Part shown: positions 19,885 through 26,527 of the stretch, piece after piece
Layout: each line of letters starts with the position of its first letter
Position numbering within the stretch: the stretch's first letter is position 1
DNA from: Desulfobacteraceae bacterium
Lineage (GTDB): Bacteria > Desulfobacterota > Desulfobacteria > Desulfobacterales > JAABSP01
DNA length: 35,275 nucleotides
Assembly: GCA_011390065.1 (NCBI GenBank)
Contig: JAABTD010000023.1
Location: 1 to 35,275 of the forward strand
Direction: 5' to 3'
Notes under the pieces: model-generated
What the model was told of the DNA's origin: nothing
The model's database searches: none
What the model saw: the letters and a program-made list of their open reading frames with translations, nothing else
Made by a program: the position numbers and the translations under genes

Positions 19885-22557
19885 TTATGCCGCGGGTTCA
19901 GCCTCTTCCTCTTCCTCCTCCGGCATCTCGGTAGGAGTGGCGGGGGGTGGAAAGGTCTGTTCCAGAATCTTTTCCGACTGCCCCCTTACCCGCACCTCGA
20001 GGTTCCGGAAGCCTTCCTCGATCGAGGTCGACATCTCCACCAGGGTGCCCTGGCTGATGATGACCCGGATGAGCTGGGGGATCTGGGTCCGGGCCGTAGA
20101 CGTCAGATAGACCGGTTGTATGTAGAGGAGGGCGTTGCCTACCGGTAAGATGATCATCCGGCCCCGGTTGATTTTGGACCCCTGCTGATCCCACAGACTC
20201 ATTTCCTGGGCAATCCGGTCGTCGTTGTCGATCAGGGAGCTGACCTGGGCCGGTCCGTAGATCTGCTGGCCCTTGGGGAAGTTGTATGTGACGATCCTGC
20301 CGTAATTGTCTTCGTCGCATCCGACGACCATCAGAGACCGCAGGTTGTCCCGGCCTATGGGACTCATGGGGGACAGGAGCATGAATTCATGCTTTCTATC
20401 TCTAAAGAGATTGATGGTCATGTAGTAAGATCTTTGCAGATCGGTTTCCACGCCGGCGAACTCCCAATGGTCCTCCTGGTGGTAGAAGCGGTCGGAGGTT
20501 TTCTGGTGGTATTTCCTGAACACGCTCATCTGAATCTCGAACATGCCTTTCGGGTAGCGCAAATGTTGCCTGACATCCTCATTCATCTCGCTCATGGGCG
20601 AGAACAACCCCGGATAGATGCGGGAATAGGCCCGGATAATGGGGTCTTTGGGATCGAAGAGATAGAATTTTATATCTCCGTGATAGGCGTCCACTACGAT
20701 TTTGACCGAGTTGCGGATATAATTGATCTGCTCCGATTCGTAATGCTGGTCTGTGTAGAAGCCGGTGTATGGATAGAGATAGGATGCGGTATAGGCGTCC
20801 TGTATCCAGAAGAACCGGTCTTTGTCCGCCACGATGTAGGGGTCGCCGTCCAGCAGCAGAAAGGGCGCCAGGTTTTCGATGGCTGTCTGGATGTTCCGGC
20901 GAATCAGAATCCGGCTGTCCTCGTTGGTTTTAGTGGTGAAAAAGATGTTTTTTTCCCTGAAATAGAGCGCGAAGATCGCTTTTTTGATCAGATTGGCCAT
21001 GGGGATGCCGCCGCGGCCCTCGTAATGCGTCACAGTGTTGTTGTCCTCCTGCGGATAGTCGATCTCTCCCTGTTCGTTGGGCGCAATGGCGTACTGATAT
21101 TTCTCCATGCCGAAATAGATGCCCGGCCGGGATATAGTGTAGGGAAGCTCCGACTGGAGCGGAAGGTTTCGGATAAACCATTCCATATCGGCATCGCCGC
21201 TCTGGGCCGCGGGACTCATGACCACGCCGTACCCATGGGTGTACTGGAGGCGTCGGTTGATCCAGCTCTGGGAGGTGGCCGGCAGCCTCCGTGTGCTGAT
21301 CTCCCGCGCCGCTATGTTCACCTGCTGATAGATGCCGTTGACGGTGTACCGGTCCACATCCACGCCGGGGAATGAATAATAGGGGCGGATGCCCTGTCGC
21401 TGTTCGTAGACTTTTCCCAGCATATCCCGATCCCAGACCGGGATGTTCCGAAGGTTTTTCTGGAGGTAAATGTCCTCGGCGACGAGTTGCATCACCGGCT
21501 TGATGTCATATTGGCGTTCTTCCACTTCTGCAAGGTTGAAGGCGTCCAGCGTGGCGTCGATGTTGTACTGGATATACGGCGCCTGGCGGACCATCTCGTT
21601 GGGTATGACGATGAACTGGTTGATCATTCTGGGAATGAACGGGGTGCGTTCCAGCCCCAGGACCAGGACAAAGGCGATGGCCAGGCCCGCAAACAACCTG
21701 CCGCCCCTCCGGAAATGGATGAATCGGATGAGCGCCAGCGAGGCGAGGGTGAAGAACAGAATTTTGAGATAGATCATCGGCAGGTTGAACCACATCTCCA
21801 CGAAACCGGGGCCGAAGAAGACGGAGGCGGGATCATCCCGGTAGAGCAGACCGTACCGCTGGAGGAAATAGCCCCACACCTGGATGCCCAGCACGATGAG
21901 CACCAGGATGGTGAGATGGATCAACGCGCCCGCGGCCAGTTTCTGATCCTCTTTATCGAGGAGACGGTTTTCGAGCCAGTAGAGGCATAGCACGCCCAGA
22001 AACAGGATGGCGAAGATGACGAGCAATTGCTGCTGGATCAAGGTATAGATGGGATAGGAAAAGAGGTAGAAGGAGATGTCCAGGCCGTAAAACGGATCTG
22101 TCAGATGTTTGCCGATGCTTTCGGTGGCCGGGGCAAAGAGATACAGAAGGGTTCGTTCCCAGATCCGGTACAGGGGAATGGCCACCAGGATGGCCAGCGC
22201 CACTGAAAGCGGGGTGTAAACTCGCATGGAGCCGGTTCGGAACAGTTTGACAATGTCCCGTCGATCCGGTTCCGGGGCGCTTTTGCCCCCTTTTTTCACT
22301 GTTTCCGTGTTGCCCAGAAATCGGGAAGCGATGCGGAAGTTGAGAAAAAAGAGGAAAAAAAAGACCACGGTCACGACCAGAAATACGAGGGAAGGATAGA
22401 TCAGGCGCTGGAAGAAATAGAAGGTGTAATCCATGGAGGCGAACCACCAGTATTCGACGATGATTTCCAGCGTCGCCCGTCGGGTCAACAGATAGGCGAG
22501 CCCTGCCAGGACAGCCAGTATGGCGAGAACCCACAGCCACTTTTTCACTCTTCGCAT
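19885..22557 (-). CDS. UPF0182 family membrane protein
   Basis: Seven or so N-terminal TM segments, ERTPFIPRMINQFIV.PNE...PYIQYNIDATLDAFNL, NGIYQQVNIAAREIS, acidic C-terminal tail EEEEEEAEPAA. Confidence 0.88.
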   Translation of the reverse strand: MRRVKKWLWVLAILAVLAGLAYLLTRRATLEIIVEYWWFASMDYTFYFFQRLIYPSLVFLVVTVVFFFLFFLNFRIASRFLGNTETVKKGGKSAPEPDRRDIVKLFRTGSMRVYTPLSVALAILVAIPLYRIWERTLLYLFAPATESIGKHLTDPFYGLDISFYLFSYPIYTLIQQQLLVIFAILFLGVLCLYWLENRLLDKEDQKLAAGALIHLTILVLIVLGIQVWGYFLQRYGLLYRDDPASVFFGPGFVEMWFNLPMIYLKILFFTLASLALIRFIHFRRGGRLFAGLAIAFVLVLGLERTPFIPRMINQFIVIPNEMVRQAPYIQYNIDATLDAFNLAEVEERQYDIKPVMQLVAEDIYLQKNLRNIPVWDRDMLGKVYEQRQGIRPYYSFPGVDVDRYTVNGIYQQVNIAAREISTRRLPATSQSWINRRLQYTHGYGVVMSPAAQSGDADMEWFIRNLPLQSELPYTISRPGIYFGMEKYQYAIAPNEQGEIDYPQEDNNTVTHYEGRGGIPMANLIKKAIFALYFREKNIFFTTKTNEDSRILIRRNIQTAIENLAPFLLLDGDPYIVADKDRFFWIQDAYTASYLYPYTGFYTDQHYESEQINYIRNSVKIVVDAYHGDIKFYLFDPKDPIIRAYSRIYPGLFSPMSEMNEDVRQHLRYPKGMFEIQMSVFRKYHQKTSDRFYHQEDHWEFAGVETDLQRSYYMTINLFRDRKHEFMLLSPMSPIGRDNLRSLMVVGCDEDNYGRIVTYNFPKGQQIYGPAQVSSLIDNDDRIAQEMSLWDQQGSKINRGRMIILPVGNALLYIQPVYLTSTARTQIPQLIRVIISQGTLVEMSTSIEEGFRNLEVRVRGQSEKILEQTFPPPATPTEMPEEEEEEAEPAA

Positions 22558-23771: not shown

Positions 23772-25880
23772 TTACCCCGAGGCTTCGAAAAGGGCCGTTT
23801 CTTCATAGAGAAGGGTCGGTTCGTTTTTGCTGAGAACGCTGTTCCGGGACGGGGCGTCGGATAAATCGGACTCGTCCAGTCCGCCCCATTCCTCCCGGTA
23901 CATGGCGGTGAAGACGATGTCGAACAATACCTTGGAGAGGTCGTAAGCCGACAGACGGGGCGTCTCTTTCTCAAGCAGCCGCATGAGCTGTTTCTGTCGT
24001 TGGGACCGCGCTTTCAGCTGCTCGAGATCTCGCAACAGCCTCAATATCTGCGTCCGCATGCCCGGCGGCGTCTTGGGCAGATTCTCCCCTTTTTCCCAGC
24101 GCTCCCTGAGGCGGCCAACCTCCATGACAGGCGCCTTGAGAAGATTTTTCCTGTTTTTGTCGCTGTGGAAGATCACCTGGGCGTCGACGTATTTCTGGAC
24201 CTGTTTTTCGGTGTTTTTATGCTCTCGCTTGATGTCCTCCCGGATCATGACGCTCGCTTTGTCCGACAGGGAGATGGGGATCGACTTGAGCAGACCTTTT
24301 TTCTCCGACAGCTTCTCCTCGAACTCGGCAACAGCGCCGCTCCAGTACATGCGGCTGACCTCCTTGAACCCTTCGGACAGAGGCAGGTTCAATTCGGTGG
24401 TCCGCTGGATGGTTTTTTTGGTCTTGAACAACAGCTTTCGGGTATGTTCGAACAGCAGTTCTCCGGTGACGATGTTGTAGATCATGGCGATGGCGGCCTG
24501 CCAATCCTGGTAGTTGAAGACCCGGGGCAGGTCCGTCAGGGTCTGGCCCAGCAGACGGTTGGGAAAGAGATGAGACGGCGTGGCGTAAGCCGGGGTTCCG
24601 GCCAGCAGGGGTTGAGGGATTTCCTTTTCCGGATAGTCGGTAAAATCGACGGCCGTTTCAAAGTCGATGAGTCCTAAAGATGCGTCTTCGGGCGAGGCGA
24701 TGAACAGGGGATATCGGTCTTTTTCGGCGACGACGAAGAGATTGTCCGGCTTCAGATCCCGGATGGCGATCTGACGATCCCGCAGGCAGGCCAGAAGGTG
24801 GATGATGTTGTAGATGAGCCCCGACATCTGGTCTTTATTCTGTATGAACGACACGTGGTGGATATAAGACAGCACGGTTGCCCGATAGGCATCGACCTCC
24901 TCGCTGTTTTCAAGGAGCACCTCTTTGACCATCTCATTGAATTTGAGCAGAAATTCTTCGGGAAAGGCATCGTCCAGCCGGGTCACGGTTCTCTCGGCCA
25001 GGTGATGAAGGAACCATTCCTGTTTCCGAGAGGTGGGGATTGGAAACGAAAGCCCCTGGCCTTGCATCATCTCTGAAAGATGGGTTTCGTATTGGGAATA
25101 GACCTTGTTGATGTTGAAGCAGGTGGTCAGAGCCTCGCTGCCGTATTTGTTTTCGAACGCCAGGATATCCCACAGCAGGTTGTGGGATTTGAGGATCTCC
25201 TCTCCCATCTTCCACCGGTAGACGTCCGCATCATGCATGGCCTCGACTACCTGGGAGAGGAAAGCGTATTTCGACAGGTCCATGACGAAGACGAATCCCC
25301 CGGAGATCTTGAGGAAATCCTGGTAGGCGGGCTGTTCCCGGAGCCAGGCGATGTAACGGCTCTCCAATTCCGACGGCTTCAGTTCGGCGGCGTCTTTAAA
25401 GGGATGGACTTTCCGCATGATCGCCGTCACGCCCGGCGCCACGAATTCTATTTCGGGTTCCAGTTTGACCGCGATGCGGCCTTCGGTATGAAGGCTTTCG
25501 GTGTATTCCTCGAATTTGCGGATCGGAACGGGGGGGACCTTGATCACCAGCAAATTGTCGTAGGTCACCTTGAAACAGGTGCTTTTACTCCCCTTGGTTC
25601 TGGAGCCGGTCCGGCTCCTGCTGCGGCTCCGGGTGTTGGGGTTCTCGCCGATGATCCCAACGCTCATGCGGCGGCGTTCCCATTTGTCGTTTTTTTTAAC
25701 GCGCAGTTCGTAGGTCAGGTCCGGGCCGTCATCTTCGCCGCTGATCTGCGTTGCCCGGACCTTCGCATCCGGGTCGGCGCCGCACTGATGTTTGAAGAGT
25801 TTCAGAAAAAGTCCGATGACGGCTGCCCGCTCAGGGTCGGGTCTGGCGTTTCCAACAAATCGTATTTGGTCTGTATCCAT
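23772..25880 (-). CDS. Divergent eukaryotic-like Ser/Thr protein kinase superfamily protein
   Basis: N-lobe-like TCFKVTYDNLLVIKVPP, catalytic-loop-like IAIRDLKPDNLFV, LGLIDFETAVDF in place of DFG, activation-segment-like AGTPAYATPSH, DWQAAIAMIYNIVTGELLF. Confidence 0.7.
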   Translation of the reverse strand: MDTDQIRFVGNARPDPERAAVIGLFLKLFKHQCGADPDAKVRATQISGEDDGPDLTYELRVKKNDKWERRRMSVGIIGENPNTRSRSRSRTGSRTKGSKSTCFKVTYDNLLVIKVPPVPIRKFEEYTESLHTEGRIAVKLEPEIEFVAPGVTAIMRKVHPFKDAAELKPSELESRYIAWLREQPAYQDFLKISGGFVFVMDLSKYAFLSQVVEAMHDADVYRWKMGEEILKSHNLLWDILAFENKYGSEALTTCFNINKVYSQYETHLSEMMQGQGLSFPIPTSRKQEWFLHHLAERTVTRLDDAFPEEFLLKFNEMVKEVLLENSEEVDAYRATVLSYIHHVSFIQNKDQMSGLIYNIIHLLACLRDRQIAIRDLKPDNLFVVAEKDRYPLFIASPEDASLGLIDFETAVDFTDYPEKEIPQPLLAGTPAYATPSHLFPNRLLGQTLTDLPRVFNYQDWQAAIAMIYNIVTGELLFEHTRKLLFKTKKTIQRTTELNLPLSEGFKEVSRMYWSGAVAEFEEKLSEKKGLLKSIPISLSDKASVMIREDIKREHKNTEKQVQKYVDAQVIFHSDKNRKNLLKAPVMEVGRLRERWEKGENLPKTPPGMRTQILRLLRDLEQLKARSQRQKQLMRLLEKETPRLSAYDLSKVLFDIVFTAMYREEWGGLDESDLSDAPSRNSVLSKNEPTLLYEETALFEASG

Positions 25881-26053: not shown

Positions 26054-26527
26054 TCAGGCAACCCTGTAGACGCCCCGTTTGACGCTTTCGATTTTGCCTT
26101 CCTCTTTCAGTTTGGAAACAACATTGTGAATCGTTCGAACGGTAAAGCCGGTGTTCCGGGCCAGGGTGGGGGGGTCGAGACCTTCCGGGCTTTTAGAAAG
26201 TTCTTTCATCACCGCATCGGTGGAAGACATCCTGGGCGGCGTTTTCCTCGGCGTCTTTTTGCCGCCTTCGGATTTCCCGCTGGCGGTTTTTTTCTTCGGC
26301 CTTGTGGACTTGGCGGCCTTCGGCGCTTTTTTTTCACGGGCAACCGTTTCCGTTTCCGGCGGGGTTTCGGGTACGCCCTTTTCGTCAACCTCCTGCTGCT
26401 GAAACGTCTCCAGGCCTTCGGCAACTTCTTCAATGCCTTTTGCCAGCGCCTTCAATCCTTCGGAGATGCTCTTCAGGAAGATCTCGCTGTTTTTCATCAT
26501 CTGATTCCGACTCGCTTTCTTTCGCAT
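26054..26527 (-). CDS. Winged-helix DNA-binding protein with Lys/Pro/Ala-rich linker
   Basis: Linker KKAPKAAKSTRPKKKTASGKSEGGKKTPRKTPP; C-terminal wHTH DAVMKELSKSPEGLDPPTLARNTGFTVRTIHNVVSKLKEEGKIESVKRGVYRV. Confidence 0.7.
   Translation of the reverse strand: MRKKASRNQMMKNSEIFLKSISEGLKALAKGIEEVAEGLETFQQQEVDEKGVPETPPETETVAREKKAPKAAKSTRPKKKTASGKSEGGKKTPRKTPPRMSSTDAVMKELSKSPEGLDPPTLARNTGFTVRTIHNVVSKLKEEGKIESVKRGVYRVA

Follow-up and report, generated by a model that had tools for sequence, protein, structure and literature searches.

A divergent, order-restricted family of Hanks-type Ser/Thr protein kinases with a D-x-E metal-binding motif in Desulfobacterales

Hanks-type Ser/Thr kinases of bacteria (PF00069, PknB-like) are marked by a C-lobe with an RDLKPxN catalytic loop, a metal-binding Asp, an activation segment and an Asp in αF; the His of the HRD motif and the Gly of the DFG motif are usual in these enzymes, not absolute. 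In the PpkA-PppA-Fha pathway of type VI secretion, a kinase, a PP2C-type phosphatase and an FHA protein are encoded together. Pseudokinases are recognised by loss of the β3 Lys, the HRD Asp or the DFG Asp (review, PMC12599244), and the bacterial families ActPs1-3, DLHK, GLW, CP1 and DYD, which have altered catalytic motifs and insertions, lose at least one of the three (PMC12599244). The kinase domains of the LanKC/LanL lanthionine synthetases (ThurKC, CurKC) carry D-F-E-T-A at the metal motif. In ThurKC, a class III enzyme, DFE is found in a domain with the kinase fold and phosphorylating activity, and the Glu (Glu384) makes contacts to residues stabilising the activation segment (PMC10604976).

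The gene described here lies in a 35,275-nucleotide stretch of Desulfobacteraceae DNA (contig JAABTD010000023.1 of assembly GCA_011390065.1), which is the whole of the sequence analysed and is referred to as the window. The product and its relatives have each of the C-lobe features of Hanks-type kinases listed above, and differ from those kinases in the absence of the HRD His, in D-x-E for DFG, in a Pfam score under the cut-off, in added residues between the β3 Lys and the catalytic loop, and in an N-lobe that profiles do not recognise. They resemble the bacterial pseudokinase families in their altered motifs and insertions, whereas all three of the residues used to recognise pseudokinases are kept. 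D-F-E-T-A is shared with the lanthionine synthetases, from which the divergent kinases differ in that no cyclase domain was found and scores fall far under the cut-off. As in the PpkA-PppA-Fha pathway, kinase, PP2C-type phosphatase and FHA protein are encoded together, in relatives of the window kinase and not in the window itself; the kinase is of a different family, the FHA partner is a small double-FHA protein, and no type VI secretion gene was seen among the annotated neighbours. The divergent family, which previously had no name, is a real, coherent and order-restricted variant of the Hanks-type kinases and not a new kind of system.

The kinase gene and its family

The 702-aa open reading frame lies on the minus strand, which a previous sequence-only reading had not specified, and contains all of the motifs quoted in that reading (Table 1). 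Pfam identified Pkinase as the sole domain (aa 346-500, E=3e-6) with a PF00069 score of 27.3 bits, below the gathering cut-off of 31.7, and scans with NCBIfam and Pfam models gave no match above threshold. In profile-profile comparisons (hhalign), the family profile matched the C-lobe of canonical kinases of the same genome with Prob 97-98 and E about 1e-11 to 1e-14, the match for aa 346-490 had an E of 5e-13 to 2e-14, and with a deeper collection of 36 kinase domains the family C-lobe matched at E=2e-14. Given the Pfam E-value and the profile-profile probabilities, the likeness of the C-lobe to protein kinases is judged to be more than chance. The earlier description of a eukaryotic-like kinase thus holds for the C-lobe, and the distinct subfamily that it proposed is borne out as a coherent family with 100 aligned members, the alignment on which the residue counts given here are based. 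Close homologs in a characterised kinase family, which would have told against that proposal, did not emerge, the NCBIfam and Pfam matches being sub-threshold. PADLOC, which searches for defence systems, returned only weak matches through the generic kinase C-lobe, and a defence-system reading was rejected on these grounds.

Table 1. Features of the divergent kinase gene in the window (aa, residue of the 702-aa protein; fractions refer to the 100 aligned members)
Feature	Position	Strand	Basis
702-aa divergent Ser/Thr protein kinase gene	23772..25880	minus	ORF; Pfam Pkinase; 100-member alignment; dN/dS
RS-rich tract and GSKS (RSRSRSRTGSRTKGSKS), aa 84-100	25581..25631	minus	Alignment: S100 100/100, C102 97/100
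Proposed β3 strand with Lys114 (NLLVIKVPP), aa 109-117	25530..25556	minus	V112, K114 100/100
Proposed β5/hinge, FVFVMDLS, aa 196-203	25272..25295	minus	M200 98/100, F207 95/100; assigned by motif only
Proposed αD-αE insert, aa 217-345	24846..25232	minus	No Pfam/NCBIfam domain
Catalytic loop IRDLKPDN, aa 373-380	24741..24764	minus	R374, D375, K377, P378, N380 100/100
Metal-binding LIDFETA (D406, E408) in place of DFG, aa 404-410	24651..24671	minus	D406, E408 100/100
APE-like end of activation segment, GTPAYATPSH, aa 428-437	24570..24599	minus	T429 99/100, P435 98/100
αF motif YQDWQA (D459)	24495..24512	minus	Q458, D459 100/100; aligned with canonical αF Asp
Acidic C-terminal tail with Thr motifs (EPTLLYEETALFEASG)	23775..23822	minus	Related tails in many members

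Purifying selection acts on the gene: comparison with a 78%-identical protein of a congener gave a dN of 0.14 against a dS of 0.69 (dN/dS about 0.2). In whole-genome searches it was found in 25 of 58 close relatives and in 124 of the 291 genomes searched from its class, all 124 belonging to the window's own order, Desulfobacterales; a 297-genome sample of the phylum contributed a single genome from outside this order. By these searches within the phylum, the family is largely confined to Desulfobacterales, and some carriers have two to four copies. No relatives were found among viral contigs, plasmids and phages, and by these collections the kinase is therefore not a phage or plasmid gene. An N-terminal transmembrane segment was scored in 47 of the 100 members. 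Most of these have two helices flanking about 50-110 residues, and because the stretch between them is short and extracytoplasmic the transmembrane members look like sensor kinases. A motif common to them, VxLKNG...W..G...FY....NK.EI (residues 25-80 in L101, L067 and L073), lies in the extracytoplasmic part and may be a sensor. The window's clade is soluble and has no transmembrane part.

Catalytic residues and the D-x-E motif

Thirteen positions are identical in 100/100 aligned members: V112, K114, R374, D375, K377, P378, N380, G403, I405, D406, E408, Q458 and D459. The β3 Lys, the HRD Asp and the DFG Asp are accordingly each kept throughout. Position 373, which corresponds to the HRD His, is I, M, L, V or A and never His, and DFG is replaced across the family by D(V/F/L)E, with V, F or L at position 407. 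Because of the invariant residues across 100 members, D-x-E and (I/M/L)RD are regarded as family traits and not as decay; the non-canonical motifs noted earlier are indeed present, and can now be described as fixed properties of a family. The proposed αC Glu, at position 133, is Glu in 74 members and Asp in 20.

These features bear on whether the protein transfers phosphate. The loss of the HRD His and of the DFG Gly, a position 133 that is not strictly Glu, and an N-lobe match that does not reach significance all count against an active enzyme, and the first three are what would be expected of a pseudokinase family that binds nucleotide or partner proteins, transfers no phosphate, and affects FHA proteins only by scaffolding or by allosteric switching. 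Such a role is nonetheless unlikely, given that the three residues by whose loss pseudokinases are recognised (PMC12599244) are invariant and that DFE is present in the phosphorylating ThurKC (PMC10604976). Of the two possibilities left side by side in the earlier reading, active kinase or pseudokinase, the former is favoured because the catalytic residues D375, K377 and N380 and the metal-binding D406 are all retained. Homology suggests that K114, N380 and D406 would bind ATP-Mg and that the hydroxyl group of the substrate would be positioned by D375. By analogy with Glu384 of ThurKC, the Glu of D-x-E may stand in for the DFG Gly and fix the activation segment.

In a profile search of the PDB, LanKC chains aligned with the divergent kinase through IIDFETA, and the NCBIfam LanL model was matched weakly by all 26 members of alignment A1. 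If the protein were the kinase fragment of a lanthipeptide-type biosynthetic system and phosphorylated a precursor peptide, this would explain the common DFETA and these weak LanL/LanKC matches; it would not explain a score of 15.3 bits against a LanL cut-off of 650, or the lack of a LanC-like cyclase domain in Pfam scans of the window protein and the other members scanned. The catalytic loop also differs, being GDLQPAN in the aligned LanKC chain and RDLKPDN in the divergent kinase, and the genes next to the kinase in the loci inspected encode FHA proteins, PP2C phosphatases and various other products. A biosynthetic role of this kind is exceedingly improbable.

Several kinase folds carry out other chemistry, SidJ being one example. 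With this precedent, the altered DFG, the unusual N-lobe and the inserts would be compatible with a SelO-like nucleotidyl transfer (AMPylation) or with modification of a small molecule. The family has, however, conserved an APE-like activation segment and an αF Asp, both typical of protein kinases, and the presence of phospho-Thr readers and a PP2C phosphatase beside its members points to protein phosphorylation, which makes a different chemistry very unlikely.

N-lobe, inserts and C-terminal tail

From K114 to R374 the window kinase has 260 residues, in comparison with 87-115 for canonical kinases from its own genome and from the phylum, and the excess of about 150-165 residues is therefore real. 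Locating the elements of the N-lobe within this stretch depends largely on motifs. A sub-profile of the N-lobe (aa 55-216) aligned with canonical kinases in the correct register at a score no better than that of column-shuffled versions, and in the best local profile alignment K114 fell on the canonical β3 Lys, again with a score no better than shuffles. AlphaFold models of the full-length protein and of its segment 53-216 had pLDDT values of 39 and 38; the input to each was two sequences (the window protein and L031), to which the poor quality of the models is attributed.

The assignment proposed from motifs places the glycine-rich loop at GSKSxCF, β3 at V112-K114, the αC Glu at E133, αE at residues 349-372, and β5, the hinge and αD in FVFVMDLSKYAFL. 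By this reading the extra residues would be divided into roughly 35 between β4 and β5 and about 125 between αD and αE. The proposed αD-αE insert gave no Pfam or NCBIfam domain and no match to the kinase profile. The large inserted domain suggested by the sequence-only reading is thus supported as to the presence of extra sequence between the β3 Lys and the catalytic loop; the motifs suggest that two inserts, together with the usual kinase elements, account for the extra length better than a single inserted domain does. Directly before GSKS, the RS tract forms an insertion that the alignment shows in no members outside the window's own family (G000-G003), and its interpretation as a separate domain was rejected for this reason.

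The C-terminal region, previously described simply as Lys/Glu-rich, is conserved across the kinase family, is probably helical, and terminates in an acidic tail that contains Thr. The tails of 23 of 80 family members end in T[IVLM], compared with 1.5 expected in shuffles, which ignore kinship. Many tails finish in ATI, ATV or TTI-COOH and are enriched for acidic Thr motifs. As a hypothesis, the tail is a candidate phospho-site, possibly for autophosphorylation, or a docking motif for FHA domains.

Gene neighbourhoods and the proposed pathway

The genes around the window kinase encode a winged HTH protein, a methyltransferase, a LEA_2 protein and a transglycosylase, an arrangement that is kept only in the congener. 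The LEA14/WHy and winged HTH genes had been put forward as possible conserved partners, and are in fact common to only one other member of the genus; with conservation limited in this way, the winged HTH, methyltransferase and LEA_2 genes were rejected as partners. The winged HTH protein (157 aa, window 26054-26527, upstream on the kinase's strand) has a Lys/Pro-rich middle and a C-terminal winged HTH. Elsewhere in the window, a large UPF0182 membrane protein with an acidic C-terminus (19885-22557) is 94% identical in the congener, far above the conservation of its neighbours.

Comparison of homologous loci, as the earlier reading had recommended, uncovered FHA and PP2C genes as the recurrent partners instead. 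A double-FHA protein of 216-284 aa is encoded at ≤1 kb from the kinase in 27 of 100 loci, on the same strand in 15 and on the opposite strand in 12, and FHA neighbours were confirmed by Pfam for several loci. In 26 of the 27 adjoining FHA proteins, GR and SxxH are found, as expected for binding to phospho-Thr. Mapping the FHA-neighbour label onto the kinase tree needs six changes, so that the association has been gained or lost repeatedly. Since genomes have from one to fourteen FHA matches (15 genomes counted), chance adjacency is estimated to be of the order of one per cent if about 4000 genes are assumed. In eight genomes from four genera (G059, G085, G096, G219, G111, G012, G082 and G063), the sole FHA protein detected adjoins the divergent kinase. 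A PP2C gene joins the FHA and kinase genes in six of the 100 loci; five of these have the order PP2C-FHA-kinase, and L145 has kinase-PP2C-FHA.

Other arrangements are found at individual loci. In one clade (L157:5529-8632 and similar loci) the kinase and double-FHA genes are divergent, and after the latter comes a gene for a hybrid histidine kinase that has two receiver domains, a layout that suggests cross-talk between Ser/Thr and two-component signalling. About 2 kb past the kinase, L068 (6128-7021) and L121 (7555-8448) encode a 297-aa protein whose N-terminal sequence is cyclase-like and whose C-terminal part carries an FHA domain. An AMMECR1 neighbour in one clade is taken as local synteny.

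The window's member has neither an FHA nor a PP2C gene adjacent to it. The double-FHA protein of this genome instead adjoins a canonical kinase, in an operon on contig C338 (L206:353-4574) that encodes an 843-aa canonical kinase, a PP2C phosphatase and the double-FHA protein. This FHA protein is 47-51% identical to the FHA partners of the divergent kinase elsewhere (47% between L206 and L145), and because the L206 and L145 operons share gene order, the canonical and the divergent kinase occupy the same slot. The genome has seven canonical kinases above the Pfam cut-off, any of which could do the writing if the divergent protein were a pseudokinase. Against that possibility, the FHA protein of G063 adjoins the divergent kinase in a genome that is 96% complete and in which no PF00069 match, and so no canonical kinase, was detected.

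A working signalling kinase is the most likely explanation, because the catalytic residues are kept and relatives lie repeatedly beside FHA and PP2C genes. The product of the window gene is probably a strongly diverged but active Ser/Thr kinase of the Hanks type, from a soluble branch of a family whose output would go to FHA readers. The likely output of the relatives would be phospho-Thr on partner proteins or on their own Thr-bearing tails, which would be read by the neighbouring double-FHA protein and erased by the PP2C phosphatase. As the window's member has no transmembrane part and no FHA neighbour, that it works in the same FHA/PP2C kind of pathway is something we infer. A more elaborate proposal, tentative and as a whole somewhat doubtful, is that this order-specific family has its own inserted regulatory segment, reached DFE independently of the lanthipeptide kinases, displaced a canonical kinase in kinase-PP2C-FHA operons, and uses its tail for FHA docking.

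A sizeable kinase family missed by Pfam's cut-off is now defined, with a testable double-FHA partner and phosphatase. Besides the lanthionine synthetases, it is a second group in which the DFG Gly is changed to Glu throughout a family, and it makes it possible to test how far DFG can vary before activity is lost. The family also calls for caution, in that motif variants alone are insufficient for calling bacterial kinases dead.
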